From Eubacteriales Family XIII. Incertae Sedis bacterium (GTDB lineage: Bacteria; Bacillota; Clostridia; Peptostreptococcales; Anaerovoracaceae): a stretch of 64,000 nt of DNA. The position numbers and the translations under genes are program-made. Position 1 is the first letter of the stretch; the number at the start of each line of letters is the position of its first letter. The stretch lies in contig JAISTV010000006.1 of NCBI GenBank assembly GCA_031272485.1, forward strand, positions 1 through 64,000, given 5' to 3'. The notes under the pieces are model-generated. The model did no database searches. It had not been told where the DNA came from and worked only from the letters and a program-made list of their open reading frames with translations. Positions 984-24,464 of this stretch are shown here, piece after piece.

Positions 984-990
984 AGTCGCA

Positions 991-2437: not shown

Positions 2438-2458
2438 TGTTTTCTGATTTTGCGGCGC

Positions 2459-4653: not shown

Positions 4654-4659
4654 GTGTCC

Positions 4660-4884: not shown

Positions 4885-4937
4885 ACTCCTACAAATCGTG
4901 TCGGGTTTTTATCGTGAATGGCAATCCGCGTCGCTTT

Positions 4938-6152
4938 TTACTCGTCTTCCGGGTCGAAATCGCAGAGGTACTCCACGAAATGAATAAAATCGCCGGTCTC
5001 GCTGCGCACAAAATCGTAAAAGACATCTTCCTTAAATTCGTACTTGGCTATGGCGGAGAGCTTGTGGGCGAACGGCGAGGCCTGAATCTCCCGCTCGAGC
5101 CGGTGAATCCGCGCCAGCGAGTACGTGGCGAGCACGAGCTGCCCGTCGTCGGTCAGATACACCATGCCCTTCACGTCGTCGTTCAGGCGGTAGACCGCCT
5201 CCTTCAGGTGGTTGTTGTTCTCATTAAAGTTCAGGTACAGGCGCCCCGCCTCGGTGTCCCGCTTCATGGCGCTCATGTATCTATTGTCGAGGAACTCCTC
5301 CAGCCGGACGCTGTCGGCCTGCACCTCGTAGACCGTGACAAACTCAGGCCGCTCGAGCTTCATGGCGGTCTCCGCCGCGGAAATGCGAAACGCGGAAAGC
5401 ACTTCAAAGCTGCTCACGCGGCTACCGGTGGTATGAATCTCCGACGTGACGATCCTATGCGCCGTGTCCGACTCTATGAGCGACTCACAAAGGTAGGCCG
5501 CCTCCTCGCCCTTGCCGGGCAGCTTCTCTATGCGGTTCAGGCACAGGGTGTCGCAGTAGGTGTCGCGCGAGAGGGTGGACGCTATCTGATCGCCCGCCAG
5601 AATCCGCACGGCATCCACGTCCCCGCCGAAATACCGCATGAGGAAGTAGTTTATGAGCTGGTTGCCGTTCCCGAGCCGCACGCAGGTCTTGCGGAAGAGC
5701 GCCTCGCGCTCGGCGGGCGTGCTGTCCACCGCCTCCGTCAGCAGGAAGCCGTACTCGTCCTCGCCCTCCGGCAGTTCCTCGCCAAACCGCTTGTTGTAGC
5801 CCGCGTATTCCTGCAGCAGGATGCGCGCTTCTCTTTCCGTGATGTCAATTTTCTCGCTGCCGAGCCCGCCCAGCATGGCCTGCTCTATCTCCAGCATGGC
5901 CACGGCGTCGTTCCCGTAAAGACTGCGGTAGGACTCTATGCCCACCTCGGTGGTTTCTATGTAAAAGAATTGATGGAAACTGCGGTCGTCCTCATCCGTG
6001 CTGTAGTAGGAGCCCAGCTCCCAGCGCAGATAAATCACGAGGACACCCATAAGGCGGCTGTCTGTGGTAAAGCCGCTGATATATCGCTTCTCTTCGCTTC
6101 TCTTTCGTAGGTCGAGCCCGCCGATGATCACTTTCAGGTCGCTTCGGTTCAT
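4938..6152 (-). CDS. conserved hypothetical protein, 404 aa, family not recognised
   Basis: Long ORF with Bacillota-like codon use and AAGGGG SD upstream of ATG; no recognised motif. Confidence 0.75.
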   Translation of the reverse strand: MNRSDLKVIIGGLDLRKRSEEKRYISGFTTDSRLMGVLVIYLRWELGSYYSTDEDDRSFHQFFYIETTEVGIESYRSLYGNDAVAMLEIEQAMLGGLGSEKIDITEREARILLQEYAGYNKRFGEELPEGEDEYGFLLTEAVDSTPAEREALFRKTCVRLGNGNQLINYFLMRYFGGDVDAVRILAGDQIASTLSRDTYCDTLCLNRIEKLPGKGEEAAYLCESLIESDTAHRIVTSEIHTTGSRVSSFEVLSAFRISAAETAMKLERPEFVTVYEVQADSVRLEEFLDNRYMSAMKRDTEAGRLYLNFNENNNHLKEAVYRLNDDVKGMVYLTDDGQLVLATYSLARIHRLEREIQASPFAHKLSAIAKYEFKEDVFYDFVRSETGDFIHFVEYLCDFDPEDE

Positions 6153-6316
6153 CTTACCCCTTCATACTCCCATAAGATTTCGTCTTGTCGAGGCCGCAGG
6201 CGGCCTCCCTCACCACGGAATCCGGAGCCCCGTTTCCGTAGCGGTTATGATAGTATAGCACGGTGTAGAGAGAAAAGCGCGAAAGGGAAGAAAAAAACGG
6301 CACGAAAAACCGCAGA

Positions 6317-6334
6317 AAATTTTGTACAAAATTT
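6317..6334. promoter_or_regulatory. 18-bp perfect palindrome AAATTTTGTACAAAATTT upstream of his promoter
   Basis: Perfect dyad directly read; 12 bp upstream of -35. Confidence 0.6.
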
Positions 6335-6346
6335 GCGGAGTGCTTC

Positions 6347-6375
6347 TTGACTTTATCGCTTTATCATGATAAAGT
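6347..6375 (+). promoter_or_regulatory. his operon promoter TTGACT-N17-TAAAGT
   Basis: -35 6347-6352, -10 6370-6375. Confidence 0.65.
6359..6374. promoter_or_regulatory. 16-bp perfect palindrome CTTTATCATGATAAAG overlapping his -10 (putative operator)
   Basis: Perfect dyad located between and over the promoter elements. Confidence 0.6.
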
Positions 6376-6420
6376 ATGCCGGTACGCGAGAGAGGATGCG
6401 GGAAGCAGGAGACATATTAA

Positions 6421-8088
6421 ATGATAAGAAACAACAAGATAACCCCCGAGGGCACGGGCGATATGCTCTTCGCCGAGTGCGAGGCGCAGTACCGCATAAC
6501 CGAGTCGCTGCGCGGCATATTCGAGGGCCGCGGCTACCGCGAGGTGCGCACGCCCGGCATGGAGTTCTACGACGTGTTCGCTTCGCGCGAGGACTATTAT
6601 CCGCCGGAGAGCGTCTACAAGCTGAACGACTGGAAGGGCCGCGTGCTCGCCGTGCGCCCGGATTCCACCATACCCATAGCGCGCCTGGCGGCCACCAAGC
6701 TCAAGGGCGCCGGCCTGCCGCTGCGCATCTACTACGCCCAGAGCGTGTTCCGCCAGCAGGAGGCCCTGCGCGGTCAGGCCGCGGAAATGATGCAGATGGG
6801 CGTGGAGCTTCTGGGTGCCAGCTCGTTTGAATCGGACATGGAGATTCTCTCCACGGCCTTAGACGCGCTCACGGCGGCGGCTGGCGGCAAGACCCGCATA
6901 GAGGTGGGGCACGTGGGCATTTACAACCTGCTCATGGCGGACCTCACGGCGGACGCGGAAGAGAAGAACAAGATTCACAGGCTCATAGCTGCCAAGAACT
7001 ACGCGGGTCTGGGCGACGTGCTTGAGCGCACGGACGGCAGCCGGACGGCGGCAATACTCCGGCGGCTTCCGGCCCTCTTCGGCAGCACGGACGCGCTCGC
7101 CGAGGCCGAGGCCATAACGGCGGACTACAGCGAGCAGCTCACGGAGATGCTCGGCTACCTCAAGCGGCTGTTTACGGCGCTCAAGGCCATGGGGTTCGGC
7201 GACCGGGTGCTGCTGGATTTCGGGCTGGTGAACCAGGCGGAGTATTACAGCTCGCTCGTCTTCCGCGGCTACATGGAGAGCACGGGCGTGCCCATCCTCT
7301 CCGGCGGGCGCTACGACGACCTTTTGGGAGACTTCGGCGAGGCGCTGCCGGCCACGGGCTTCGGGCTGAACCTGGATCTGGTCACGGCGGCCGCGTTAAA
7401 ATCGGAAGAGAGCGGCGCGGATACGAACGCGTCAAGTATTTCCCTTGACAGCGGCAAGGTGCGCATAGCCCTCACCAAGGGCCGGCTCGAGGAGGATTTC
7501 GTAAAGATGCTCGAGGAGGCGGGCTACGACTGCTCCCTGATACGGCAGAAGGGCCGCAAGCTGCTCATTCCCATCCCGGGGACGGACATAGAGCTCTTCC
7601 TAGCCAAGGCGCCGGACGTGATTACCTACGTGGAGCACGGCGTGTGCGACATAGGCATAGTGGGCAAGGACACCATCCTCGAGCACGGCGGCACGTACTA
7701 TGAGATACTTGACCTGGGCATAGGCCTGTGCAAATTCGCGCTGGCTGCGCCCAAGGACACGGATTTCTTCGGGGCGTTCGGCTCGCGGGTCATAGCATCT
7801 AAGTATCCGAACGTGGCGGCAGCCTTCTTCGAGAGTAAGGGCATGGACGTGGAGGTTATTAAAATAGAAGGATCCGTGGAACTGGCGCCGCTCCTGCACC
7901 TCGCGGACGGCATCGTGGACATAGTGGAGACCGGAACCACGCTCAAGGAAAACGGGCTTGAGGTCATAGAGGATATCCGCCGCGTCTCCGCACGGCTCAT
8001 AGTAAACGTGAGCAGCATGAAGATGAAAAAGGCGGCCATAGAGGAACTGACAGGGCGGCTTAAGCCGCCGCAAAGGAGAGGGCAGTGA
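6421..8088 (+). CDS. hisZG: fused HisZ (ATP-PRT regulatory subunit) - HisG (short-form ATP phosphoribosyltransferase)
   Basis: Residues ~1-330 class II aaRS-like HisZ (EVRTPGMEFYDVF, RPDSTIPIARLAATKLKGAGLPLRIYYAQSVFRQQ, LSGGRYDDLLGDFG); residues ~346-555 short HisG (VRIALTKGRLEEDF...GVCDIGIVGKDTILE...DGIVDIVETGTTLKENGL); one uninterrupted frame. Confidence 0.92.
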   Translation: MIRNNKITPEGTGDMLFAECEAQYRITESLRGIFEGRGYREVRTPGMEFYDVFASREDYYPPESVYKLNDWKGRVLAVRPDSTIPIARLAATKLKGAGLPLRIYYAQSVFRQQEALRGQAAEMMQMGVELLGASSFESDMEILSTALDALTAAAGGKTRIEVGHVGIYNLLMADLTADAEEKNKIHRLIAAKNYAGLGDVLERTDGSRTAAILRRLPALFGSTDALAEAEAITADYSEQLTEMLGYLKRLFTALKAMGFGDRVLLDFGLVNQAEYYSSLVFRGYMESTGVPILSGGRYDDLLGDFGEALPATGFGLNLDLVTAAALKSEESGADTNASSISLDSGKVRIALTKGRLEEDFVKMLEEAGYDCSLIRQKGRKLLIPIPGTDIELFLAKAPDVITYVEHGVCDIGIVGKDTILEHGGTYYEILDLGIGLCKFALAAPKDTDFFGAFGSRVIASKYPNVAAAFFESKGMDVEVIKIEGSVELAPLLHLADGIVDIVETGTTLKENGLEVIEDIRRVSARLIVNVSSMKMKKAAIEELTGRLKPPQRRGQ

Positions 8089-9359
8089 TTAAGACCATTC
8101 GTATAAATAATGCGGCGGACGTAAGGCTGGCGGTGGCTGTGCTTGCCGGCCGTGGCGGGACGCTGGCGGAAGGCGTGGAAGAGGCGGTGCGCGAGATTAT
8201 ATGGACCGTGCGCGTAGGGGGCGACCCGGCGCTCTTCGCTTACGCGGAAAAGTTTGACGGCGGCATGCCGGATCCGCTTACCGCGGGACGCGCGGAGATG
8301 AAGGCCGCCTATGAAAAGGTAGATGACGCCTTCCGGAAGGCCATAACCCATGCGGCAGAGAACATTCGCGCCTACCATGAGAAGCAGCTGCCTGCCGGCT
8401 ATGAACACAAGCAGGAGGGCGGCGTGGTGCTCGGACAGATCGTGCGCGGGCTTACCCGCGTGGGGCTCTACGTGCCGGGCGGCACGGCGGCCTACCCTTC
8501 CACGGTGCTCATGAACGCCATACCGGCCAGGCTCGCGGGCGTGCAGGAGCTCATCATGGTTACGCCGCGCGCGGAGCTGAATATCCTGGCGGCGGCCTAC
8601 CTTGCCGGCGTGGACAGGGTCTTCTTCGTGGGCGGGGCGCACGCGGTGGCGGCGCTTGCGTACGGGACAGAAACCATCCCGCGCGTGGATAAAATCGTGG
8701 GTCCCGGAAACGTCTACGTGGCCACGGCCAAGCGGATGCTTTACGGCACGGTGGACATAGAGATGATTGCTGGTCCGAGCGAGGTGCTCATCCTCGCGGA
8801 CGAGACGGCGGACGCGGCTTACGCGGCGGCGGACATGCTCTCGCAGGCCGAGCACGACGTGAACGCGGCGGCGGTGCTGCTGACCACGGACGAGAAGGTG
8901 GCGGAGCAGGTGTCAAGTGAAATAGCTTTACAGCTGAAATCGCTGCCGCGCGGCGGGATTGCGGGGGAGGCCATAGAGAAGAACGGCCTCATTGGCATCT
9001 GCCGGTCAGAGGATGAAATGGTGGCGCTGGCGGACGAGATAGCGCCGGAGCACCTGGAGATTCTCACGGCGGACCCGTTCGGGCTGCTGGCGCGGGTGAA
9101 GAACGCGGGCTCGGTGTTCCTGGGGCCGTACAGCCCGGAGCCGCTCGGAGACTACTACGCGGGAACCAACCACGTGCTGCCCACAAGCGGCGCGGCGCGG
9201 TTCGCCTCCCCGCTGGGCGTCTATGACTTCGTGAAGCGAATGAGTTATACTTACTATACGAGGGAGGCGCTCGCAGCAGCCAGGGAAGACATACAGGCCA
9301 TAGGAAACGCAGAAGGACTGACCGCACACGTCGCGGCAGTAAATAAGAGATTCGAGTAG
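8085..9359 (+). CDS. hisD: histidinol dehydrogenase
   Basis: GLYVPGGTAAYPSTVLMNAIPA, IVGPGNVYVATAKR, MIAGPSEVLILADE, GDYYAGTNHVLPTSGAARF; GTGA overlap with upstream stop. Confidence 0.96.
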   Translation: MIKTIRINNAADVRLAVAVLAGRGGTLAEGVEEAVREIIWTVRVGGDPALFAYAEKFDGGMPDPLTAGRAEMKAAYEKVDDAFRKAITHAAENIRAYHEKQLPAGYEHKQEGGVVLGQIVRGLTRVGLYVPGGTAAYPSTVLMNAIPARLAGVQELIMVTPRAELNILAAAYLAGVDRVFFVGGAHAVAALAYGTETIPRVDKIVGPGNVYVATAKRMLYGTVDIEMIAGPSEVLILADETADAAYAAADMLSQAEHDVNAAAVLLTTDEKVAEQVSSEIALQLKSLPRGGIAGEAIEKNGLIGICRSEDEMVALADEIAPEHLEILTADPFGLLARVKNAGSVFLGPYSPEPLGDYYAGTNHVLPTSGAARFASPLGVYDFVKRMSYTYYTREALAAAREDIQAIGNAEGLTAHVAAVNKRFE

Positions 9360-9476
9360 ACGTCATTCCCGGGCGACGTACAGTAGACGTCATTCCCGGG
9401 CTTGTCCCGGGAATCCAGAAGTGCAACTATCGATAGGATGCGGTACTGGATTGCCGGGACAAGCCCGGCAATGACG
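9355..9476. repeat. REP/MITE-like palindromic element with a partial direct repeat, in the hisD-hisB gap
   Basis: AGTAGACGTCATTCCCGGGC at 9355-9374 and 9382-9401; hairpins 9392-9414 and 9450-9472; the two units are inverted around CTATCGATAG (9427-9436). Confidence 0.75.
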
Positions 9477-9523
9477 AGTGGATAATCGCAAGGTATGTAT
9501 GCGAATGAAGAAAGGATAGGGAT

Positions 9524-10111
9524 ATGCGAAACGCGGAGAAGAACCGGGAGACTAAGGAGACGCGGATTACGCTTGCGCTGAATCTGGACGGCAGCGGCGC
9601 GGCCGACGTGCAGACGGGCGTGGGGTTTTTCGACCACATGCTTACGGCCTTTGCCGTGCACAGCGGTCTGGACCTCACCGTGCGCTGCGCGGGCGACCTG
9701 AACGTGGACGGACACCACACGGTGGAAGACGTGGGCATAGTGCTCGGGCAGGCCTTCGCGGAGGCGGTAGGCGAAAAGAAGGGCATAGCGCGCTACGGGT
9801 TTTTCGCCATCCCCATGGACGAATCGCTCGGGCTGGCCGCCATAGACATAAGCGGCAGGCCGTATCTGGTCTTTGACGCGGACTTCCGCGCGGACGCTGT
9901 GGGCGACCTCGAGACGCAGCTCGTGCGCGAGTTCTTCTACGCGTTTGCCACCAACGCGGGCGTGACCCTGCACATCCTGGCCCCCTACGGCGAGAACGAC
10001 CACCACAAATGCGAGGCCATCTTCAAGGCCTGGGCGCACGCGGTGAAAGCGGCCGTGGCGCTCACCGGCCCGTCTGACGCGGTGCTCTCCAGCAAGGGAG
10101 CGCTCGCATGA
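9524..10111 (+). CDS. hisB: imidazoleglycerol-phosphate dehydratase
   Basis: GVGFFDHMLTAFAVHSGLDL, DGHHTVEDVGIVLG, GENDHHKCEAIFKA. Confidence 0.96.
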   Translation: MRNAEKNRETKETRITLALNLDGSGAADVQTGVGFFDHMLTAFAVHSGLDLTVRCAGDLNVDGHHTVEDVGIVLGQAFAEAVGEKKGIARYGFFAIPMDESLGLAAIDISGRPYLVFDADFRADAVGDLETQLVREFFYAFATNAGVTLHILAPYGENDHHKCEAIFKAWAHAVKAAVALTGPSDAVLSSKGALA

Positions 10112-10707
10112 TTGCGGTCATAGACTATGGCGCGGGGAACCTGTTCAGCGTGCACAACGCGCTCAAGTTCCTCGGCTTTGAGAACCGCGTGACGGCGGAC
10201 CCGGGTGTGCTGCGCGCGGCGGACAAGCTCATCCTGCCGGGCGTGGGCGCCTTTCCGGACGCCATGAACCGCCTCCGGCAGGCAGGCCTGGACCAGGCCA
10301 TCCGGAGCGAAGCCCTGAGCGGCAAGCCGCTACTGGGCATCTGCCTGGGCATGCAGCTGCTGTTCGAGAAGGGCTATGAGTTTGAGGAGACGGAAGGGCT
10401 GAGCCTCATAGACGGCTATGTGGACAAGATTCTGGCGCCCGCGCTCAAAATTCCGCATATGGGCTGGGACGAGGTGGAGATAGTCAATCCCTCGCCCCTC
10501 ACGGCGGACATAAATAGCGGAGACCGCGTCTACTTCGTGCATTCCTACAAGGCGGTGACCGCGGTGAGCAACATAAACCTGGCGACCCAGTACGGCCAAC
10601 TCGTACCGGCCCTCGTCAGCAGGGACAATGTCCATGGCGCCCAGTTTCATCCCGAGAAGAGCGGCGGCGTAGGGCTGAAGATCCTGAACGCGTTCGGAGA
10701 GCTTTAA
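10108..10707 (+). CDS. hisH: imidazole glycerol phosphate synthase, glutamine amidotransferase subunit
   Basis: IDYGAGNLFSVHNAL, LPGVGAFPDAM, LLGICLGMQLLFE, GAQFHPEKSG. Confidence 0.96.
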   Translation: MIAVIDYGAGNLFSVHNALKFLGFENRVTADPGVLRAADKLILPGVGAFPDAMNRLRQAGLDQAIRSEALSGKPLLGICLGMQLLFEKGYEFEETEGLSLIDGYVDKILAPALKIPHMGWDEVEIVNPSPLTADINSGDRVYFVHSYKAVTAVSNINLATQYGQLVPALVSRDNVHGAQFHPEKSGGVGLKILNAFGEL

Positions 10708-11421
10708 GTGATTATCCTGCCTGCCATAGATTTGATAGACGGACAGTGCGTGCGGCTTACGCGCGGCGCGTACGACACGGCCGAGCAAGTGGCGGCGGAA
10801 CCGCTTCAGACGGCGGACAGTTTTGCCGCGGCGGGCGCGCGGTGGATTCACATGGTGGATCTGGACGGCGCCAAGGCGGGCGCGCCGGTAAACCAGGACG
10901 TGATTCTGGCGGTGGCGCGCGCGGGGAAGCTTCAAGTGGAGGTGGGCGGCGGCATCCGCACGGCGCAGGACGCGGCCCTTTACATGGACGGCGGCGCGGC
11001 GCGCGTAATCCTCGGGTCCGTGGCGCTCACCGAGCCCGCGCTGGTAAGGGAACTCGTGGCACAGTACGGCGAGCGGATAGCCGTGGGCATAGACGCGCGG
11101 GATGGCTTTGTTCGGACCGCCGGGTGGCTGGCGGAAAGCCGCGTGCATTTTACGGACTTGGCGCGGGAAATGGCCGCGGCAGGCGTAAAGACCATCATCT
11201 ATACGGACATAGGCCGGGACGGCACGCTCTCAGGGCCGAACCTGGAAGAGCTGGCGGCCGTACGCGACGCGGCGCCCGGCGTGGGAATCATAGCGAGCGG
11301 CGGCATAAGGAATCTGGCGGACGTTCAGGCCTGTCAAGCTCTGGAGCTTGACGGGGTCATACTCGGCAAGAGTATTTACAAGGGGACCATAGATTTGAAA
11401 GAGGTAATCGCGTTATGTTAG
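10708..11421 (+). CDS. hisA: phosphoribosylformimino-5-aminoimidazole carboxamide ribotide isomerase
   Basis: [56 protein letters not shown] start. Confidence 0.95.
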
Positions 11422-12209
11422 CAAAGAGAGTTATTCCGTGCCTTGACGTGAAGGACGGCAAGGTGGTCAAGGGCGTGAACTTTGTCAATATCCAGGACGT
11501 GGGCGACCCGGTGCAGTGCGCCATAGAGTATAACCGGCAGGGCGCGGACGAGATAGTCTTTCTGGATATTACCGCTACGCACGAGCGGCGCGGCACCATG
11601 GCGGACGTGGTTTTCCGCACGGCGGAGAACGTGTTCATACCGCTCACGGTGGGCGGCGGCATTCGCACGCCGGATGACTTCCGCGAGCTGCTCAAGGCAG
11701 GCGCGGACAAGGTGTCCGTAAACTCCGCCGCCGTGTACGGCCCGGAGATTATCTCGGAGGCGGCGTACCGGTTCGGAAGCCAGTGCGTGGTGGTGGCCAT
11801 AGACGCCAAGTGCGTGGGCACGGAAGAGAATCCGGACAGCCCCCGCTACGGGAAGAAGAAGTACCACGTCTACACGGAGGGCGGCCGGAAGGACGCCGGG
11901 CTGGACGCGGTGGAGTGGGCGCGCAAGGCGGAGGAGCTGGGCGCGGGCGAGATTCTGCTTACGTCCATGGACACGGACGGCACCAAGGCGGGGTTTGACC
12001 ACGACATGCTGCAGGCGGTCTGTGAGGTGGTGCGGATTCCGGTTATCGCCTCGGGCGGCGGCGGGTCCCTGGATTCGTTTGTGGAAGTGTTTAAGAAGAC
12101 GGATGCGGACGCGGCGTTGGCGGCCTCGGTCTTTCACTACGGCGAGTACGTGGTGGACGACGTGAAGCAGGCCATGCGCGGCGGCGGGATTCCGGTGAGG
12201 ATACAGTAA
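11415..12209 (+). CDS. hisF: imidazole glycerol phosphate synthase, cyclase subunit
   Basis: [61 protein letters not shown]. Confidence 0.96.
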
Positions 12210-12535
12210 TGGAACTGGATAAGTATTTTGAGAAGAGCGATCTTGTGCCCGCCGTGGTCATAGACGGAACGGACGGCGCGGTGCTCATGGTGGCGTATAT
12301 GAACCGCGAGAGCCTCGAGAAGACGCTTGATACGGGCTATACCTGGTACTACAGCCGCTCGCGGCAGCGCCTGTGGCAGAAGGGCGAGGAGTCGGGCCAC
12401 GTGCAGCGGGTACTTAGCATAGTGCCGGACTGCGATTTCGACACGCTGCTCGTAACGGTGGAACAGACAGGCCCGGCCTGCCACACCGGTAACCGCAGCT
12501 GCTTTTTCGCGGAGCCGATATACAAGGCGGAGTAA
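12209..12535 (+). CDS. hisI: phosphoribosyl-AMP cyclohydrolase
   Basis: [40 protein letters not shown]...[20 protein letters not shown]. Confidence 0.95.
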
Positions 12536-12545
12536 GGAGAAAACT

Positions 12546-12896
12546 ATGTTTGACGTAATTAACGACCTGTACGCCGTTATCCTCTCCCGCAAGGAGTCTG
12601 CGGCGGAGGGGTCTTATACCGGCTACCTGTTTCGCGAGGGCCTCGACAAGATCCTCAAGAAGGTCGGGGAGGAGAGCAGCGAAACCATAATTGCCGCCAA
12701 GAGCCTTCAGGCGGACGCGGCGGACGCGGGCAAGCGCGCGGATTTGGCGAATGAGGTCTGCGACCTTTTGTATCACCTGCTCGTGCTGCTCGCCGAGCGG
12801 GACGTGCCCCTCGAAGAGGTAGAGGAAATCCTGCGCGCCCGCGCAGAGAAGCAGGGAAACCTGAAGGAGCAGAAGGTCATAGATAAAAATAGTTAA
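12546..12896 (+). CDS. hisE: phosphoribosyl-ATP pyrophosphatase
   Basis: SYTGYLFREGLDKILKKVGEESSETIIAAK...ANEVCDLLYHLLVLLAERDV. Confidence 0.95.
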   Translation: MFDVINDLYAVILSRKESAAEGSYTGYLFREGLDKILKKVGEESSETIIAAKSLQADAADAGKRADLANEVCDLLYHLLVLLAERDVPLEEVEEILRARAEKQGNLKEQKVIDKNS

Positions 12897-12921
12897 TAGT
12901 TTTACACACGAACGATTATTG

Positions 12922-12951
12922 TTGACTTAGAGTGTGAGTTTCCCCTATAAT
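12922..12951 (+). promoter_or_regulatory. strong promoter TTGACT-N18-TATAAT for the giant surface-protein gene
   Basis: -35 12922-12927, -10 12946-12951; predicted 5' UTR of ~110 nt. Confidence 0.7.
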
Positions 12952-13069
12952 AACCTGAGAGACATCTGGATTTACAAGGAGTTATTTTTTCGCAGAGGGT
13001 GGAGGCTTTTAGGGCACCAATCGGGGGTTCCTTTATGTTTCCATTTTGAGCATGGGGAGGATTGCAAGT

Positions 13070-16000
13070 ATGCGGTTAAGCTGCCGGATACGAGCTTTTG
13101 CCAAAAAACGCATCAGTGTGGTAGCCGGGTTGAGCTTGACGCGTGAAGTTCCTACGAAAAAAACTGTTACGGGCAGCAAGCGCCGCTATTTCTTAGCGTG
13201 CGCGCTTTTGCTTTTTGTCATCTTTTCCATCTCCGCGCTCATTGCCGCGGAAAACGGCTATAACCTTTTTGACGGCTGGTTCTCTGCCGGGGCGGAAGAC
13301 CCTGCGGGAACCGATAGCGTGGCGGCTGACGCTGCGCAGGGCGAAGCGGATACGGCCGCGGGCACGGAGGACATTGCCGCGGAGAGCGAAGCGGATGCCG
13401 CTGCCGGAACGGAAACAGACGCAGAAGCGCAGGCAGCGGAAAGCAGCACGGTAAACACGCTGAGCGTAAACCCGCTGGATGCGGACACCATGCAAGGCTA
13501 CGCCGAGCAGACGCCCGGTATGACCGCCGCGCAGGTAAACGCGCTCTCGCAGGGCGTGGACGAGGAGTGGTGGAAGGTAAACGGCAGCTACAGCTGGATG
13601 TGGAGTTCCTACGTGCTGACGGGCTGCGAGGAGACGAATCCGGACTACCCGCGCTGGGTACAGTACACCGGAAACGACGCGAACTATGTGGACCTTCTGG
13701 GCGCCATTACGCACATCCCGCAGGCGGCCCCGGACGGACATCACTACTACACCACGAGCGCGGATATGCGCGTTCCGGCGCCGGCGCTGGATGACGCTTA
13801 CACCTTTGGCGGTACCATACCGCGGGACGGAGCGTTTTCCGAGGCGGAGCCGTGGATAGATATAAACAGCGACGGGGAAAACGCGCAGGAGCTGCCCAAG
13901 GTGGCTTCTACCGCCGGCGACGGCAGCACGGTATATTCCGATGAGTATTCCTATTACTACCTTCGTATGACCTACGGGGCGTATGCCAGCGTGACTACGG
14001 ACGCAACCACCGGCAGGTCTTCCTACTACAACGTAAATCGCGGCAGCATAACGATACCGAACCCCACTATAAGCGTGACCATAAACGACGAGTACTTCTA
14101 TGAGCTGACCTCCTTCGGGGCCGATAAGGTCTGGGACGCGTCCGATGACGTAGCCTGGACCAAAATGCTCAAGAGGATAAACACCCTGAAGGTGTATGAC
14201 GCCGCTGCCCAGCGGTGGTTCCTGGATGCGGATGGGGACGGCGTTTATGACCCCTGGTATCGAGGCGGTTCGACCGCCAACCCTACAAGAGCCGGGGAGA
14301 CCTGGATTTCGGAAGTGGACCCGGAAGGGGACGGGCCCATAGTGGTGGGCGGATACGACATAACCGCGGAACTGGCCAGTATCGAGGCGAATCCGGATCA
14401 GATTATTCCGGCCTACATAGACGCGAACGGAAACGGCGCCTATGACCTGTATACCGAGCCATACATGGACTGGAACCGGAACGGCAAGTGGGATGCCCAC
14501 TACGGGCCGGAGCTCATGACCGGTGCGGTCATTCACGAATATGGCTGCCCGCTGTTCGGTTCGAACGTGCGCCCGACCTATGCGGGGGCGGTGGCCACAG
14601 GGCAGGACGATAACTGGAAGATAAACGGAAACGGCATCTTTAAGATGCACAATTCCGCGGCGAGCGCGGACAGCTCGGATCAGATGTTTAACTACGCGGT
14701 GGAGCAGCCGTTTTCGGAAAGCCCTGTATTATTAGGTAACGCTGCTCGTGCCTATGTCGCCACCATGACGGCCATAGCCGCGGAGTACCTGACCGGCCCC
14801 GGGATTAACAGCGGCGCGGCGCAATACACAGTAACCAGCGGGTCCGGCAACTCCCTTAAGACCACCAATTATATAATCCCCATGTCGGCAGGAAACGGCG
14901 GCAATGTGAGCGCCATCAAGGCGGCAAGCAACGCCGGCAGTCTGCCGGGCGGGCTGAATAACTGGGTGCTGCACCCCTGGTCGTTCTCGGTGGGAACCAC
15001 GGGGAAGGCCACGGCCGCTGCCATAGCGCAGACCGATACGGAAACGAGCCTTGCCGCGAGCGGTTACAATACAAAATTTGCTACGAGCGGCAACACGGGC
15101 GGCGCCACGAACTACGTCTGGCAGCCCGTCTGGCGGCAGTATTACGGCGGCCAGTACAACGCGAACGCCGAGTTTACCGGAAACTCCACCCGCACCACAG
15201 CGTCCCTGTTCTATAACGACCCGACGCTGGCGCAGGTCTTTTTCGCGCAGTCGCGTGCCACCTATGACGGGGTAAACAACCCCGCAGACACCTTGAATGG
15301 TGCAGACGCAAACCGCAACATGCTCTCCTACGAGTCGGCAGGCTCTGCCGCGGGGGACACGGCCAGCACGGATACGGAGGCGCGCGTGAGCCGGGCGCTC
15401 GGCGAGACGCCGCTCTTGGTCAAGGATGCGGCGCGCTACCTGCTCCCGCGCTTCGACGGTGCCTTCCCCAAGATAGGCGGCACGGCGGAGGGCGTTTCCT
15501 ACATAGCGGACGTATCGCAGTATTTCGGCGCGAACACGGACATAGGTCCGGACATCCAAAGTGTGCTTCTGGACTATACGGAAGCGGAAAACCGCATAAC
15601 CCAGTCTACGCCCGTTGGCTCGCGCACCTATTGGACCTTTGGTTACGATACGCAGGTCACCGGAAGCTACCCGGTGGCGGCCTCCTCGTCCTACCACATG
15701 GCGAGCATATACGGCAATACGCCGGTGAATAACGCGGCAAACGGTTATGGCACCTCCGACACGGCATCCAACGCCTGGAATACAAGCGCCGCGACTTACA
15801 ACCCCACGGGCTGGATAGGCGGCGATAACGCGAAAACCGCGGTAACCGAGGGCTCCCCCACGCTTAACTCCGGCGCCTACCCCTTCTACCAACCGCTGTC
15901 CATAAACACCGGATACACGAAGGCAGAGGGCTGGCAGGATGCCTCCGCTGTGACGGGAACGGACGGCGTGGACATGGCGAGCATGGAGGCCAGCCCCGTG

Positions 16001-19000
16001 GCCAAGACTTCCATGGGGCAGCGCAGCGCGGGCTTTGCCAACTTGAACAGCGACACTGCGGTAAGCAACGGCACAGACAGCGCCCTTCGCTATCCCATAA
16101 TCGATACGCTCTACGGCCAGGGCAACGGCACGACCACCGGCGTGAGCAACGCGGCGCTGTGGATAGACAGCTGGAACCGCTACTTTACGGGCGGCATAGT
16201 CCAGGGCGACGCGAACGTAAAGGCCAACGCACCTTACACTAACACCGGCAACGGCGCCACCCTGAAGGTGGAAACGGAAGAGATTACGGCGGAGCCGGCG
16301 GTGACCATATCCCCGGCGGCCGTGCAGCCCGAAAACCGCTATACGGTGGGCTTCTATACGCAGGACTGGATCTACATGGGCAGTGAGGTGCGCGATCCGG
16401 CGGCCGGTATGCCCATGCAGGTGTGGAACGCCGGCGATGCTAGCGGCTGGACGAGCTCGTCCGCAATGGGCGTAGACAATTCTCTGCCCGCCACCGCCAC
16501 CACCGCCACGGACCGCCTGGGGGTAGCCAACAGCGCGGCCAAGGCCTCTGTCTACGCCACCTATCAGAACAACTGGGGCTATTCGGGCGGCTGGCCGGAT
16601 TCCTACTGGTCCTATCTGGGCGACCAGCGCATAATGAAGAGCGATACCGGCGATGCCAAGAAGGCGCTCACGGATCCCACGGATGCGTTCGGGCGCTGGT
16701 CCGCGACCACGTATAACGACACCACATACGCGGCGAGTCTCCAGCCATCGGATATCAGTTACGGGCAGGGGGCGAATCTTAGCGCAGCGTCCTCCTACAA
16801 ATATCCCAACCTGTACTACAAGGGCTCCGTGCCGGCGCAGGCGCAGGCCTCGGGCAACAGCAACGCCGCCACCCTCTCCATGGGAACGGCTACCGGTACG
16901 GCGTGGAGTGACATCGTCTGGCGGCGCAACTGGGTATACGGATACGGTTTTACATATGGCACTGCCAATACGAGCGGGCAGACTGCGGCCGTTTTGGGAT
17001 TTCCCTCTTCCGGAACCCCCAGCGCGCAGCTTCCCACCGACGTGGAAATCTACGCGAATCTGTCCTACGGCGGCAATCTAATGTACACGCAAAACTCGCT
17101 GGCCTGGTATAGCCGCTCGCTGCCTACCATGTGGTGGCGCGGGCCGCTGGGCAACGCGTATGACCCGGACGGGCAGGATAAGGACGGCATGATTTGGATG
17201 GGCGGAGAGTCTACCGCGGACGCGCTGAATGGCGCGAGCACGCCGCGTACCGCGGACATAGGCGAAGGAATCCAAAACAAGTATAACTACATCAACACAT
17301 TCGGAAACAATAAGGTTGCCTCCACCGCGGATAGCTCGTCGCTCGGTTATCTTTCCGGCTATAATATTATCAGCCGGACAAATACCAATAGCTTCCTCAC
17401 AGGTTATGATTCTCAATCCGGCGTTCCGCAGAACGTTTCCTACAGTACGCTGTCCTACGCCTCCGCCGTGGTGCGCAACAGGCAGAACTACGATGCTTCC
17501 GCGGAGACATCGGTTTACTACGTAGCCGACGATGTGAAGCTGCGCTACGCCTATGCGGCCGGACGCGAGCAGGAACCGGTGCAACACTATTTCTACTCGC
17601 TTTCCCCCAACATGTATAACTTTGACCATACCGATTATAACGAGACTAACGACGACACGTTCGAGAAGTACACCATAAACGGGTATCTGAACAACGCGCT
17701 TGAAAACAAGACCACCGCCGCTACTGCCACGATGGCAGCGCTTTATGCGTCCAAGAATGTAAAGGCGGAGGACTCCGAGTACTCGCAGATGACCAATCTG
17801 CGCACCGGCGACCTGCTGCCCTCTACGGAAATCAACTACCTGCCGCAGAGCGGCGTTTCGGGGACACCGGCCAGCGGCACCCTGATTGAGCCGGATACCA
17901 CCGTGGCGCTGCTCAAAGATGAGTACGGCCGCGATCCTGCAGACCCCTATGAGGATGTAACGTACTGGTATTCGGTGAAGATGATGTCCATAGAGAGCGC
18001 CACCGCCTCTCCCTATACCGGCCTCACCCGCTCCATTTCGGAGATGTACACCAACGACTATGTGGGTGATTCTCCTGAGGTTATCAATGAAACCAACACC
18101 CGCCAGGTAGGAAACGGGGACGATTTTGCCGTACTGGGCATGAGTCAGACAAGCATATCCGCGGCGGACCAGGGTGAAATTGGCTATACCGGTAGTAGCA
18201 CGCAGCCGCTCTATAACGCCACCGGCACGTTTTCTGGCGGCTCAGGTTTCTGGCAATCCGAGGAGACCGGCTATATGGGTACGGTAGCCTATACCGGGCT
18301 CAGCGTGAGCGGAAAGCCGCTCACCGAAGCGCTGCCTTTTGGTAACGTGACGCTTACGCAGAGCAACGCGGCGTTTTACAATACCGATCCCATAACCGGC
18401 GGCATACAGGCGCATGACCTGTATCTGTTCAATGCCTCCAATGCCCTTGGCTCGGACGGCGGCTTCGTAAGGTCGCTTTACGGCTATATAGCCAACGACT
18501 ATAACTTTGTGCGCACCGGCCCGCTCCTGCGTACGGTAGGCCAGCAGCTGGAGATGAACGATTCCAGCTCTACGGAGTACGAAAAAGTAAAGCCGTACAG
18601 CGGCCAGGTCAGCGGTCTTTTTGATAGCAACCCGTATCCGGCGGGTGAGAACCGGTTTGAAATGAGGCTTTATACCCGTGGTGAAAACAGCTCCCAATAC
18701 CTTGCCAACTGGACGAAGGGCTGGCGCTGGTCTACCGCCCGCTCGGAGAAGGTCACGCAGGGCGCCATAGACTGGAATGACGCAGACGGGAACGGAATCA
18801 AGGATGCGGACGAGGAATATGTAAACGCCGCGTTTATCGTGGCGGGTTCCGGCCATCAGATAGCGCTTTCGGGCGCCAACCACATTCAGGACGGCTACCA
18901 CATAGTGAACCTCGGCGCCACCGTGTCCGGTGAGGCCATTCACGATCCGGCCACTGCGTCTGCACCCTCGCACGCGGTGGATCTGGGGTCGGCGGCGGAC

Positions 19001-22000
19001 AACACCGACCACAATACGGACTGGCTGTACGACAACGACGGCGATGGCATAGTGGGTCTCAACGAGAGCTACGCCAATCCGACGGCGGCGGCGCTCAAGG
19101 TGGATACGCAGACGGGCAAGGTCTACGACAGCTATACGATACCTGCGGACATCCCCACCAGGGCCGGCCTGAACTTTATCGGCTACCGTCTGATCGTGGT
19201 GGATACGGGCTACGATATGAACGTGGCGGAGACATTCTGGAAAACGTCCACCGCCACGACTACGACGAATCCTACCGGAGCCTATTCGCAGGCGGCGCCG
19301 GCGGCGTATAAGTATGGTGTGGTACCGGACAACCCGAACACGCCGGATATAAACGAGAGTTACGGCGCGGCTTACGTCATGAGCGCGGCAAGCGGTCAGA
19401 CCATGCTGGTGGATACGGGCGGCGGACAGATTCTGGTGCAGCCGGGTGACGAGATTCTGGGCGTGGCGCAGGGACGCGCGTATAAGAACAACACCCTCGC
19501 CAGCACGAGCTACACGAACTGGGTCTATGGCGAGCCGAAGTATGACCCCGTTACGCACGAGTTCCTGGGCTACGTAGACGCAAACGACGGCGACGGCGAC
19601 GGCGACCGCGAAGAGTGGCTGGACTACTATGAATATGACGGCGTTCCTTACGAGACGCCCGCGTGGGAGATTCGTCTGATTCCCGTCTGGGGTCCGGTGG
19701 TCTTCTATACGGACAGGAACGATGGCGGCTGGACGCAGAACCTGCCTCCGGACCTTTATACCTCCGCCTCCGGGCTGGACGACTACGGCATAATAGACGA
19801 CTACCTGCCGGTGGAAGCCGGCGGCGCGGGCTGCATGCTGGAAACCGGTTACGCCGGCTACACCATTCCCGCCTACTGGCCCACCCGTCTGGACGGCGCC
19901 ATCTTCCAGGGATACCGCGTGTATGTGGACAATATGGACTATACCGACGAGGAATACGTGTACGTGGGGGACTACCTGCCCGGGGAGTTGATTCCCGCGG
20001 ATGTGATAAACAACCAGACACCGGACGGCAGCGGCACGGATACCATACCCGGCAATGTACGCCTTGTGGCCATCTGGCGCATGCCGGTCATCTACACGGA
20101 TAACATCAACGATATCTCCACGGACACGGGCATAGACGTGGACAGGGATGGTACCACGAAGCTCACGGCGGGCGCGCTGGCCCTCACCGACGAGCCCGGC
20201 AAGGATATATTGGTGCCAAGCAACCTGTGGGACAGCACGGGCAAGAAGTTCTACGACGACCTGACCATGAAGTACTACTACCCGTACTTCTTCCACGAGT
20301 ACGCGGTGCCGGCTACGGAAAGCACCATGAACGAGTATCTGGAGCCGCGCTTTGCGGATACGGCAGAGGTGACCGACCCGACCTATCCGGAATACTTCCC
20401 GGATTATCTGGATACCACGCAGCCGGATTACGGGAAGCCCACACCGGAAGCCTACGCGGCGGGTTACTTCTTCATAGATAACCCCGGTACGGCGTTTGAC
20501 GAGAATCCCAAGATTCCAGAGGGCGTCCACGCGTTCCCGGACTTCGAGTGGGATCATTGGTTCGTGCGCAGCGGGCCGGCGCAGGTGGCCTACGACTACG
20601 TGGATAACGACGGGCTGAGCGCCACGGGTGCGGCGCTTACGAACGTGAACGTGCCGGATAATATTCCGGACGCGCTGTACGACCTGGACAAGGTGAAGAT
20701 TTCCAAGGTGCGCGGAACCATTTACGTGACGGGCATCTGGCGGTACGCGGTACGCTATAACGAGCGGTACATAGACGCGTACGACCTGGGCAATATGGAC
20801 GATTTCGGGAACATTGCCGCCGGGCAGGACGGCTACGCGGATGTGCAGAACCTGCCGCCGGATGAGGTGAGCGGGGACTACTCCGGCGCGCTGGTTACGG
20901 CTGCGGCGGTACACATAGATTATATAGACGACTTCGTCTACTTCTACACGGATTACGTTTCGGGCAGCGGCGGCGCTACGCCGGGCCAGGGCTGGTTTGA
21001 CGAGAAGCCGGAGTACAGCATAGTGGGGCCGGGGTATCAGATTCTGTCTACCACGAACGCCTCCATATCCAACGAGACGCCTACCAAGGTGGGCGCGGTC
21101 TTCGAGTACTACACGGTGCAGCTGGGCGGCATCTTCGGGGATAACGAGGCGTTTGAAGACGACCCGACCCTGCGCCATACCATCATGGCGGACGACATGA
21201 CAGCCATAGGCATAGTGGGCAATCCGGTGGCCGTGAACGACGAGGGCCTGACCGGGGCGCAGAAGTTCTACCCGGGCGACATAGTGCCGTGGGAGTTGTT
21301 CCTCAAGTACAAGGGGCGCATAATCCTCACGCCGCACTGGAAGGACGGCAGCGTGCTGTATCTGGGCAATGAGTCCTCCGTGGGCGAGAACCCGGGCGAC
21401 GCGCTCTACATTCCCGACCACTGGGAAGATACGCTGCTTGACCCGCCGGTGAACGCCGCGTACGAATACTACTTCAAATGGCAGGATATCACGACGGATT
21501 CGGCCATAACGACCATGAGCTCCATAATCGGCACGAACGCGTTCCACACCAAGGTGGGCGTAACGTTCGGCATCCAGTGGCACGATCCCAAGCACCGCGG
21601 CGGCGGCGTATTCAACGACGGCCTTAGCAATGCAACAAGCCCGCCGGATGAGCCGGTCCAGCCCTTCTTCCAGGACGGCGATTGGGAAGAAAGCTCCATG
21701 AACATTCCGCAGCTCTCCGGTTACAGCTTCCTCGGCTGGAATACCAAGTCGGACGGCAGCGGCGACTGGTACTACCCGGCCGACCACAAGATAGATGCCA
21801 CGACGACCAATCCGGGGATAGTGCCCGCCTTCCTCTCGCAGCTTCCGCCCAGCTATACGCTGCCTGCCGGCTCCACGCGCTACGCGCTGACCTCCGGCTC
21901 GGCGGTGAGCACCACGGAGTACGGCGTGGTCTTCTACGCCATCTGGGATCCGCCCATGGTGCAGTACCACTTCCAGGGCGGTTCGAACACCGGCGGCGAG

Positions 22001-23419
22001 GTCTTCTACTGGGGCGACTCGTCGAGCAGTACGGTGCTGGATCTCATGAAGGACAAGGCGGTGAGCCCCACGTCCGGCGGCGTAGTGGGCGAGTACATCA
22101 TTCCGGAAGGCATGCGTCCGGGAGGGACGCCTGACATAACGCGCACGGGCTTTATCTTCGTGGGCTGGAACACCGAGTCGGATGCCAGCGGTGACTGGTA
22201 CACGGCGGACGGAACCTCCACGGGCGACTATTCCGCGACCATTCACGTGCCGGCGGGCACCACGGCGCATTTGTACGCCATCTGGGCGCGCGCGGGCGAC
22301 GTGTATTACCACGCGAACGGCGACGCGCCGGGCGATCCGTCGGAGACCATGTACGGCGGCTATTACGACGACATACACATAACGGATATTCCGCTGGCGT
22401 CCTTCCCGGGCTTCACGGGGAAGGAGACGGTGGCGCTGGGATTCGGCTACAAGGTGCGTCCGTATAACAACGCTTCGCCCGCGGCGGTTACCTACCCGCA
22501 GTGGCCGCTCACGCTGTATCCGGACGGCGAGTATCACAACGGACACTTTACGGGCTGGAACACGGAGTCGGACGGCACGGGGATAGCGGTGCCTGCGGGG
22601 ACGGTCTACCCGATCCGCTACAACACGGAGTTCTTCGCGCAGTGGGAGAACTGGATCACCTACCACGCAAACGCGGGCGGCGACCCGACGGTTACGGACA
22701 TACCCGCGGGCACGGTGGATGGTCACGACGTGGTGGCGCATAAGGGTTCTTATCAGGTCCACGACGCGGATCTTACGGACACCTCGCCGCTGGACGACAT
22801 ACCCACGCGCACGGGTTACCAGTTCCTCGGCTGGAGCGAGGATCCCACGGCCACGGTGCCGGCCATCTACTTCGGCCAGACGTTCCCCGTGGTGCTCCAC
22901 GACATAGACCTTTACGCGGTCTGGCAGATCAACCATTACACGGTGTGGTTTACGGACGGCTATACGGACGGGCTCTCCTACGTGAGCGCCTTCAACGACG
23001 CGGATCTGCTGCTGCTCTCCTCGGGCTCCTCCACGTACCACGACATGCAGGGCGGCATCCCGCACGGCGGCGCGGCGATAACGCCGGCCACCAACCCGAC
23101 GCGGCCCGGCTACGTGTTCGTAGGCTGGAGCATGAGCCCGGCAGACTACAGCTTCATTACGCAGGATATGTACATCTACGCGCTCTGGGAGCCGGCAGGC
23201 GGCCGCGACGACGACGATGACGATGACGGCGGCGACAACCCGCCGGGCCCCGGCCCGTTCGGACCCGACGGCGTCCCGATTACGGGCGACGACTCGAACT
23301 TCCTCTTCTGCCTCTGGGTCATGATTATCTCCGCGGCAACCATGCTGCTGGCCGCTGCCAAGCGCCGCCAGTTCCGCCGGGGCTACGTAGGCCAGGACTA
23401 CGGCCGCAGATTCAAGTAA
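13070..23419 (+). CDS. giant secreted cell-surface protein (~3449 aa) with InlB-type (Listeria-Bacteroides) repeats and a C-terminal sorting-like signal
   Basis: N-terminal TM/signal KRRYFLACALLLFVIFSISALIAA; Ca-binding-like DxDxDG segments; repeats FLGWNTKSDGSGDWY / FVGWNTESDASGDWY / FTGWNTESDGTG / FLGWSEDPTA / FVGWSMSPAD; C-term VPITGDDSNFLFCLWVMIISAATMLLAAAKRRQFRRG; SD GGGGAGGA before ATG 13070. Confidence 0.88.
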   Translation: MRLSCRIRAFAKKRISVVAGLSLTREVPTKKTVTGSKRRYFLACALLLFVIFSISALIAAENGYNLFDGWFSAGAEDPAGTDSVAADAAQGEADTAAGTEDIAAESEADAAAGTETDAEAQAAESSTVNTLSVNPLDADTMQGYAEQTPGMTAAQVNALSQGVDEEWWKVNGSYSWMWSSYVLTGCEETNPDYPRWVQYTGNDANYVDLLGAITHIPQAAPDGHHYYTTSADMRVPAPALDDAYTFGGTIPRDGAFSEAEPWIDINSDGENAQELPKVASTAGDGSTVYSDEYSYYYLRMTYGAYASVTTDATTGRSSYYNVNRGSITIPNPTISVTINDEYFYELTSFGADKVWDASDDVAWTKMLKRINTLKVYDAAAQRWFLDADGDGVYDPWYRGGSTANPTRAGETWISEVDPEGDGPIVVGGYDITAELASIEANPDQIIPAYIDANGNGAYDLYTEPYMDWNRNGKWDAHYGPELMTGAVIHEYGCPLFGSNVRPTYAGAVATGQDDNWKINGNGIFKMHNSAASADSSDQMFNYAVEQPFSESPVLLGNAARAYVATMTAIAAEYLTGPGINSGAAQYTVTSGSGNSLKTTNYIIPMSAGNGGNVSAIKAASNAGSLPGGLNNWVLHPWSFSVGTTGKATAAAIAQTDTETSLAASGYNTKFATSGNTGGATNYVWQPVWRQYYGGQYNANAEFTGNSTRTTASLFYNDPTLAQVFFAQSRATYDGVNNPADTLNGADANRNMLSYESAGSAAGDTASTDTEARVSRALGETPLLVKDAARYLLPRFDGAFPKIGGTAEGVSYIADVSQYFGANTDIGPDIQSVLLDYTEAENRITQSTPVGSRTYWTFGYDTQVTGSYPVAASSSYHMASIYGNTPVNNAANGYGTSDTASNAWNTSAATYNPTGWIGGDNAKTAVTEGSPTLNSGAYPFYQPLSINTGYTKAEGWQDASAVTGTDGVDMASMEASPVAKTSMGQRSAGFANLNSDTAVSNGTDSALRYPIIDTLYGQGNGTTTGVSNAALWIDSWNRYFTGGIVQGDANVKANAPYTNTGNGATLKVETEEITAEPAVTISPAAVQPENRYTVGFYTQDWIYMGSEVRDPAAGMPMQVWNAGDASGWTSSSAMGVDNSLPATATTATDRLGVANSAAKASVYATYQNNWGYSGGWPDSYWSYLGDQRIMKSDTGDAKKALTDPTDAFGRWSATTYNDTTYAASLQPSDISYGQGANLSAASSYKYPNLYYKGSVPAQAQASGNSNAATLSMGTATGTAWSDIVWRRNWVYGYGFTYGTANTSGQTAAVLGFPSSGTPSAQLPTDVEIYANLSYGGNLMYTQNSLAWYSRSLPTMWWRGPLGNAYDPDGQDKDGMIWMGGESTADALNGASTPRTADIGEGIQNKYNYINTFGNNKVASTADSSSLGYLSGYNIISRTNTNSFLTGYDSQSGVPQNVSYSTLSYASAVVRNRQNYDASAETSVYYVADDVKLRYAYAAGREQEPVQHYFYSLSPNMYNFDHTDYNETNDDTFEKYTINGYLNNALENKTTAATATMAALYASKNVKAEDSEYSQMTNLRTGDLLPSTEINYLPQSGVSGTPASGTLIEPDTTVALLKDEYGRDPADPYEDVTYWYSVKMMSIESATASPYTGLTRSISEMYTNDYVGDSPEVINETNTRQVGNGDDFAVLGMSQTSISAADQGEIGYTGSSTQPLYNATGTFSGGSGFWQSEETGYMGTVAYTGLSVSGKPLTEALPFGNVTLTQSNAAFYNTDPITGGIQAHDLYLFNASNALGSDGGFVRSLYGYIANDYNFVRTGPLLRTVGQQLEMNDSSSTEYEKVKPYSGQVSGLFDSNPYPAGENRFEMRLYTRGENSSQYLANWTKGWRWSTARSEKVTQGAIDWNDADGNGIKDADEEYVNAAFIVAGSGHQIALSGANHIQDGYHIVNLGATVSGEAIHDPATASAPSHAVDLGSAADNTDHNTDWLYDNDGDGIVGLNESYANPTAAALKVDTQTGKVYDSYTIPADIPTRAGLNFIGYRLIVVDTGYDMNVAETFWKTSTATTTTNPTGAYSQAAPAAYKYGVVPDNPNTPDINESYGAAYVMSAASGQTMLVDTGGGQILVQPGDEILGVAQGRAYKNNTLASTSYTNWVYGEPKYDPVTHEFLGYVDANDGDGDGDREEWLDYYEYDGVPYETPAWEIRLIPVWGPVVFYTDRNDGGWTQNLPPDLYTSASGLDDYGIIDDYLPVEAGGAGCMLETGYAGYTIPAYWPTRLDGAIFQGYRVYVDNMDYTDEEYVYVGDYLPGELIPADVINNQTPDGSGTDTIPGNVRLVAIWRMPVIYTDNINDISTDTGIDVDRDGTTKLTAGALALTDEPGKDILVPSNLWDSTGKKFYDDLTMKYYYPYFFHEYAVPATESTMNEYLEPRFADTAEVTDPTYPEYFPDYLDTTQPDYGKPTPEAYAAGYFFIDNPGTAFDENPKIPEGVHAFPDFEWDHWFVRSGPAQVAYDYVDNDGLSATGAALTNVNVPDNIPDALYDLDKVKISKVRGTIYVTGIWRYAVRYNERYIDAYDLGNMDDFGNIAAGQDGYADVQNLPPDEVSGDYSGALVTAAAVHIDYIDDFVYFYTDYVSGSGGATPGQGWFDEKPEYSIVGPGYQILSTTNASISNETPTKVGAVFEYYTVQLGGIFGDNEAFEDDPTLRHTIMADDMTAIGIVGNPVAVNDEGLTGAQKFYPGDIVPWELFLKYKGRIILTPHWKDGSVLYLGNESSVGENPGDALYIPDHWEDTLLDPPVNAAYEYYFKWQDITTDSAITTMSSIIGTNAFHTKVGVTFGIQWHDPKHRGGGVFNDGLSNATSPPDEPVQPFFQDGDWEESSMNIPQLSGYSFLGWNTKSDGSGDWYYPADHKIDATTTNPGIVPAFLSQLPPSYTLPAGSTRYALTSGSAVSTTEYGVVFYAIWDPPMVQYHFQGGSNTGGEVFYWGDSSSSTVLDLMKDKAVSPTSGGVVGEYIIPEGMRPGGTPDITRTGFIFVGWNTESDASGDWYTADGTSTGDYSATIHVPAGTTAHLYAIWARAGDVYYHANGDAPGDPSETMYGGYYDDIHITDIPLASFPGFTGKETVALGFGYKVRPYNNASPAAVTYPQWPLTLYPDGEYHNGHFTGWNTESDGTGIAVPAGTVYPIRYNTEFFAQWENWITYHANAGGDPTVTDIPAGTVDGHDVVAHKGSYQVHDADLTDTSPLDDIPTRTGYQFLGWSEDPTATVPAIYFGQTFPVVLHDIDLYAVWQINHYTVWFTDGYTDGLSYVSAFNDADLLLLSSGSSTYHDMQGGIPHGGAAITPATNPTRPGYVFVGWSMSPADYSFITQDMYIYALWEPAGGRDDDDDDDGGDNPPGPGPFGPDGVPITGDDSNFLFCLWVMIISAATMLLAAAKRRQFRRGYVGQDYGRRFK

Positions 23420-23489: not shown

Positions 23490-24464
23490 ATGTCTATCAA
23501 AGAACAGGTTCTGAATATGCTGGAGGCGGGCAAGGGCGCGCCGGTTTCGGGCGAGGCGATTGCTTCGGCGCTGGGTTGCTCGCGCACGGCGGTGTGGAAG
23601 GCCATAACCGAGCTGAAAGAGGCGGGTTACCCCATTCAGGCGGCTACGCGGCGCGGCTATTTGCTGGCGGAGACGAGCGATATTCTCTCCGCGGCGGGCA
23701 TCCGGGCGTCTCTGGGCGAGGCGGCGGCGGGGCTTACCATAGAGGTCTTTCCCAGCATAGACTCGACCAACGCGGAGGCCAGGAGGCGGGTCGCGGCTGC
23801 GGCGTCTGCTTCGGAGATTCCGTTTGCGACCATACTTATTGCCGAGGAACAGACGGCCGGCCGGGGCAGGCGGTCGAAGAGCTTTTTCTCGCCGGCGGCA
23901 GGAAGCCTGTATGTGAGCTTTGTGCTGCGGCCCCTGGGGGACACGGCGCGCACGCGTATGGTGACGATGGCGGCGGCGGTGGCGGTCTGCGAGGCCATGG
24001 CGGCGTTCGGGGCAGGCGTGCCCGAAATCAAGTGGGTGAACGATATATATATGGAAGGAAAAAAAGTCTGCGGGATTCTCACCGAGGCCATCTCGGACGT
24101 GGAAAGCGGCGGGATTGAGGCGATTATCCTGGGGATTGGCGTGAACGTGAATGTGCCGGCGGAGGCGTTCCCGGCGGAGCTGCGGCGGGCGGCGGGGAGC
24201 ATTACGCTTGCTGCGGGGCAGCGCAACGCTTTTGCGGCGGCGCTCATCCGGCGGGTCCTGGCCCGTTACGCCATGCCGGCGGCGGATGTGGTAGAGGCTT
24301 ACCGGGCGAGGTCAATGATGATGGGCCGGCAGATTTCCGTCAGCGAAGCGGGGGAGGAACGTCGCGCCGAGGTTATGGGCATAGGCGATGACGGGAGCCT
24401 GCTCGTGCGGTATGCGGACGGCGGGGAAGCGGCGCTGCTTTCGGTGGAGATTACGCTGCTCTGA
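23490..24464 (+). CDS. birA: bifunctional biotin operon repressor / biotin-[acetyl-CoA carboxylase] ligase
   Basis: N-terminal winged HTH (MLEAGKGAPVSGEAIASALGCSRTAVWKAITELKEAGYPI); ligase motifs IDSTNAEARR, EEQTAGRGRRSKSFFSPAAGSLYVSFVLRP, KWVNDIYMEGKKVCGILTE, IILGIGVNVN. Confidence 0.95.
   Translation: MSIKEQVLNMLEAGKGAPVSGEAIASALGCSRTAVWKAITELKEAGYPIQAATRRGYLLAETSDILSAAGIRASLGEAAAGLTIEVFPSIDSTNAEARRRVAAAASASEIPFATILIAEEQTAGRGRRSKSFFSPAAGSLYVSFVLRPLGDTARTRMVTMAAAVAVCEAMAAFGAGVPEIKWVNDIYMEGKKVCGILTEAISDVESGGIEAIILGIGVNVNVPAEAFPAELRRAAGSITLAAGQRNAFAAALIRRVLARYAMPAADVVEAYRARSMMMGRQISVSEAGEERRAEVMGIGDDGSLLVRYADGGEAALLSVEITLL

Follow-up and report, generated by a model that had tools for sequence, protein, structure and literature searches.

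A head module found in two phyla and on three surface anchors suggests a giant adhesin moving between gut bacteria

Giant surface proteins are usually regarded as lineage-specific and hard to interpret, and the one analyzed here can be set beside several described systems. Proteins of Bacillota with InlB/List_Bact repeats (PF09479, TIGR02543) are alike in carrying several PF09479 units near a C-terminal wall-anchor-like tail, but the units of our protein are long and divergent and an unrecognized head of approximately 1,850 aa stands in front of them. LPXTG-type sortase-anchored proteins share the arrangement of motif, transmembrane (TM) helix and basic tail after an Asp/Gly-Pro spacer; here, however, the motif is VPITGDD (IPFTGDD in a homologue), there is an extension beyond the basic cluster, and no cognate sortase was found in the 60.5%-complete genome. 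The Giant1-5 proteins of insect-associated Apilactobacillus kunkeei are extracellular, 3,000 to 8,000 aa long and subject to sequence exchange between genera, and for their N-terminal part a beta-solenoid resembling that of SRRP adhesins is predicted (PMC12863079). Our protein resembles them in being a giant extracellular protein with sequence exchange, but that exchange is among lactic acid bacteria, whereas the head described here crosses phyla, changes its holder and has an unrecognized fold. Modular type IV pilins are also known, such as PilB of Streptococcus sanguinis; the most extreme example named in a survey of them has 860 residues, and modules common to pilins and PilY1 carriers were noted in the same survey (PMC8179133). 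One homologue of our protein is built likewise, with a large module behind a class III prepilin N-terminus, but it has 2,155 aa rather than 860 and its module is no known domain; the protein studied here has no prepilin signal.

The window (the whole stretch of 64,000 nucleotides that was analyzed) belongs to a MAG of 1.26 Mb that is 60.5% complete. Its giant gene is an uninterrupted frame from the ATG at 13070 to the stop at 23419, with a Shine-Dalgarno-like stretch, GGGGAGG, directly 5' of the ATG. The gene, its neighbours and the parts of the encoded protein are as follows, all on the + strand.

11415..12209, +: upstream neighbour hisF (TIGR00735), context only
13070..23419, +: complete gene of the 3,449-aa giant surface protein (open frame, collinear homologue L007, codon-position pattern)
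13181..13261, +: hydrophobic export segment, signal peptide or signal anchor, aa 38-64 (hydropathy scan)
13262..13516, +: unconserved Ala/Asp/Glu/Thr-rich linker, aa 65-149 (sequence, alignment)
13517..19069, +: head module of unrecognized fold, aa ~150-2000, shared by four genomes from two phyla (homologue comparisons)
13859..13894, +: conserved calcium-type loop, aa 264 (homologue alignment)
14225..14260, +: conserved calcium-type loop, aa 386 (homologue alignment)
14420..14503, +: two conserved calcium-type loops, aa 451 and 467 (homologue alignment)
19031..19066, +: conserved calcium-type loop, aa 1988 (homologue alignment)
19070..23200, +: stalk of InlB/List_Bact-type repeat units, aa ~2001-3377 (PF09479, TIGR02543, motif scans)
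23207..23272, +: putative D7/Gly-Pro wall-spanning spacer, aa 3380-3401 (sequence)
23273..23293, +: VPITGDD sorting-type motif, aa 3402-3408, IPFTGDD in L007 (sequence, comparable VP/IPxTGD tails of a sister species)
23294..23416, +: C-terminal hydrophobic helix, aa 3409-3431, and basic tail KRRQFRRGYVGQDYGRRFK (hydropathy scan)
23490..24464, +: downstream neighbour, BirA-type biotin ligase (TIGR00121), context only

GC at the third codon position is 70 to 85% along the whole length of the gene, and its codon usage correlates at 0.95 with that of the neighbouring housekeeping genes in the window. Identity by codon position is 73/75/50%, and judged by this pattern the frame is under protein-level selection. 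Evidence of a frameshift or an assembly chimera was among the findings named as refuting the original prediction. The frame has no interruption, and since a Coriobacteriales contig (L007) carries a collinear ORF of 3,339 aa that is 58% identical across W146-3434, the gene is not an assembly chimera. No paralogue was found in the window's genome. Beneath the giant gene lies an antisense open frame of 1,607 aa (18242-23065, - strand), which was rejected as a gene because the longest antisense frame in the homologues is 465 aa; we take it to be a side effect of the high GC content at third codon positions. A BirA-type gene adjoins the giant gene both in the window (downstream) and in the homologous locus L006 (upstream, L006 1905-2732). 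We rejected it as a functional partner, since the two copies are only 43% identical and the L007 giant gene lies between rho and rpmE, and the adjacency is probably a coincidence.

A scan of 84,980 species genomes, in which searches with exact peptide words overlook distant copies, gave two homologues, L006 from a Family XIII MAG (bin127, genome G371) and L007 from a Coriobacteriales MAG (bin86), both from sample Md513. A profile search of 351 genomes of the family added one copy, in G370, a congener of the genome of L006, where the gene is divided between two contigs; the module is thus carried by 3 of the 351. No further copies were found among 399 genomes of the order of L007, besides L007 itself, or among 391 genomes of the class, besides that of the window, and searches of phage, plasmid and viral contigs gave no match. 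For the MAG Md513_bin60 the source is described as the gut of the termite Mastotermes darwiniensis (PMC12483993), and from the shared Md513 prefix we infer the same gut as the source of L006 and L007. The window's organism presumably also has a gut habitat.

A hydropathy scan found two hydrophobic stretches in the protein, aa 38-64 and aa 3409-3431, the former corresponding to the signal or TM segment that had been proposed for the N-terminus. The head had been described as a region without a recognizable domain, and it indeed has no match in Pfam, NCBIfam, PHROGs, PADLOC or PDB, the best PDB profile hit (E=0.41) being noise; no adhesin domain was recognized in it either. Of the profile search and structure prediction suggested at that time, the profiles gave only InlB-type repeats, and AlphaFold2 runs on the head halves (aa 150-1090 and 1075-2060, three-sequence alignments) ended at pLDDT 27 and 25. 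Its composition is low-complexity and rich in Ser/Thr/Gly/Ala/Asn. Apart from a shared linker the two halves show no resemblance, and self-BLAST reported no internal repeats. Overall identity of the head module in the four genomes is roughly 58 to 67%; most stretches and pairings fall at approximately 58 to 71%, identity rises to as much as 76% in the best-conserved part and is given as up to 88% in aa 1150-1250, and many residues, aromatic, Asp and Arg, are invariant.

Calcium-loop-like segments had been pointed out from the sequence, and the pattern D-x-[DN]-x-[DN]-G does occur nine times in the protein against 0.5 expected, a count that none of 1,000 shuffles reached. Five of these loops (aa 264, 386, 451, 467 and 1988) are positionally conserved in all four homologues, with a few changes of ligand residues. 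The position of one loop quoted earlier, DWNDADGNGIKDADEE at aa 1904, is not conserved.

The sole Pfam match in the protein is PF09479 (List_Bact/InlB), in four stretches at E=1e-18 and 67.6 bits against a curated cut-off of 27. By eye, about nine units can be counted from the unit ends where Pfam recognizes four. The InlB-type repeats of the original prediction are therefore present, but because divergent units begin near aa 2000 the stalk extends over approximately 1,380 aa instead of approximately 900. The poly-Asp/Gly-Pro spacer, VPITGDD, hydrophobic helix and KRR are all there as first quoted, and the order of VPITGDD motif, TM helix and KRR is that of a sortase substrate. A sister species (G001) bears comparable tails, VPNTGDE, IPDTGDE and VPDTGDE, so that VPITGDD is a plausible, if noncanonical, sorting signal, as had been proposed. 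The tail is unmatched by the Gram_pos_anchor profile PF00746 at E<=1. Three sortases, all class C pilus sortases, were found in the 60.5%-complete genome of the window, and no anchoring (non-class-C) sortase was found there.

The same head comes with different putative anchors. In the window protein and L007 the InlB-type stalk leads into a [VI]PxTGDD-TM-basic tail, and in G370 such a stalk leads into a polytopic TM tail. The L006 protein starts with a class III prepilin N-terminus, continues with the head and at most the first stalk unit, and closes with a short stretch not shared with the others. Its prepilin motif, PF07963, scores 33.1 bits against a cut-off of 21.2 and is absent from the window protein, and its genome encodes a PilB/GspE-type ATPase whose match is below the equivalog cut-off. 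Every genome compared is a MAG, and the prepilin fusion therefore rests on one contig. We infer that this Family XIII relative presents the head on a pilus. The L006 protein (2796-9263) is, for a class III prepilin protein, far above published modular pilins in size.

The window's gene is not the only giant in its genome (G000): four or more other giant surface frames are encoded there, with lengths of 2,020 aa, at least 4,018 aa, at least 4,336 aa and 5,162 aa. Giant surface proteins are therefore a trait of the organism, and the window gene is no lone oddity. Frames noted in this genome and in G370 are listed below.

G000:C14:160-15648 (L084): giant surface frame, 5,162 aa
G000:C11:28000-44000 (L085): giant surface frame, at least 4,336 aa
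G000:C20:44864-50926 (L083 865-6927): giant surface frame, 2,020 aa, InlB repeats and three-TM tail
L081 (G000:C6:8000-24108), ORF 4053-16109, -: two-substrate fused frame
L082 (G370:C73:3000-16000), ORF 2-8734, +: two-substrate fused frame

A three-TM C-terminal tail is shared between L083 (near 6600-6900) and L023 (near 5500-6400). Its motif resembles DD/ED-x-T-x-PM-x-x-I-x-x-W, it is found on giants with InlB repeats in two genera, and it may anchor these proteins in the membrane in place of a sortase tail. In the L081 and L082 frames, the first part is a giant pilin-type protein ending in YPLTGG, a TM segment and a basic cluster; some 10 residues on, a second signal-peptide-like segment without an ATG leads into a pilin-like protein of approximately 640 aa with its own TGD-TM-RRR tail. 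As there is no stop between the two substrates in either genus, the frame resembles a naturally occurring polyprotein that combines two pilus subunits.

The Coriobacteriales head is as close to that of the window as same-family heads are, with no drop across the phylum boundary. Our housekeeping control, a single yardstick gene (homoserine dehydrogenase), gave 70 to 73% identity between the window genome and G370/G371, against 42 to 44% between any of these and the L007 contig. The copy of this gene on that contig shares 62 to 80% identity with its counterparts elsewhere in its family, and by the neighbours of the giant gene the contig is Coriobacteriales. The giant gene of L007 stands between rho and the start of rpmE. 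In G388, which is the nearest of the relatives checked, and in G377 rho and rpmE are adjacent, with 113 and 268 bp, respectively, between the rho stop and the L31 motif; in most other relatives different genes follow rho. Because the head lacks the drop of the yardstick gene, and rho and rpmE are adjacent in the nearest relative checked, the giant gene most likely crossed between Bacillota and Actinomycetota, in either direction (n=4 copies). In codon usage the L007 giant gene agrees with its flanking sequence at 0.987, and such host-like usage speaks against a transfer of very recent date. The literature was searched for horizontal transfer in connection with Mastotermes and Coriobacteria, with no result.

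With an intact 3,449-aa ORF, an export segment, a stalk and a sortase-like tail, the identification as a giant surface protein is well borne out. We think it probable that it is a surface-tethered ligand-binding protein, that is, an adhesin, with a calcium-stabilized head and a sortase-type tail, mobile between phyla; adhesion, calcium binding and sortase processing are putative. The protein would be exported by Sec, the Asp/Gly-Pro spacer would traverse the cell wall, and the VPITGDD-TM-KRR tail would retain the protein, probably through sortase. The InlB-type repeat chain of approximately 1,380 aa would serve as a stalk, raising the aromatic-, Asn/Ser/Thr/Gly-rich head of approximately 1,850 aa with its calcium-type loops off the cell, where the head would bind a partner: wood fibre, a protist, an insect or a bacterial surface. 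The head would then be the conserved, mobile unit while its holder is replaced, by a [VI]PxTGD tail, a multi-TM tail or a class III prepilin helix. More tentatively, and with slightly less than even confidence, we propose that this passenger of approximately 1,850 aa circulates in gut bacteria of two phyla on three display systems as a habitat-specific giant adhesin.

The head could instead be a cell-tethered catalytic or polymer-processing module of new fold, with plant or microbial polysaccharide as an example substrate and the InlB repeats as a mere holder. Its long, highly conserved stretches (up to the 88% given above), its many invariant residues and the gut habitat of two relatives would suit an enzyme; we nevertheless regard this as unlikely, since there is no enzyme family match in Pfam or NCBIfam, the composition is low-complexity, and the same module on a prepilin suits binding better than catalysis. 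A structural envelope protein, S-layer-like or a spacer and without a specific ligand, seems to us more doubtful still. Such a role would fit the size, the calcium-type loops, the surface anchor and the several other giant surface frames in the genome, but the gene is single-copy, within the family it occurs in just 3 of 351 genomes, Pfam matched neither an SLH nor a CWB2 domain up to E=0.1, and the head stays conserved while the holders change. The S-layer-like option of the original prediction is therefore not supported. Very improbable, finally, is an assembly or binning artefact in which chimeric contigs mimic a cross-phylum giant gene. All genomes are MAGs, the G370 copy lies on two contigs, and two of the MAGs come from one sample; yet the homologues are proteins of 58 to 67% identity rather than near-identical DNA, each has a distinct neighbourhood and host-like codon usage (0.95, 0.97 and 0.99), and the neighbour gene of L007 is Coriobacteriales.

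Beyond the original prediction, the occurrence of the module in two phyla, its probable horizontal transfer and its three kinds of anchor are newly found here. Since the head is conserved across phyla while the holder changes wholly, selection acts on the head, and this conservation marks it as a shared tool for one habitat. If the more tentative proposal of a circulating passenger is true, the 2,155-aa prepilin version would far exceed the modular pilins surveyed in PMC8179133. The natural versions provide a ready test of the partner of the head, and of the same adhesin on a stalk versus a pilus. A previously undescribed head shared by three surface anchors points to a giant adhesin being passed among gut bacteria.
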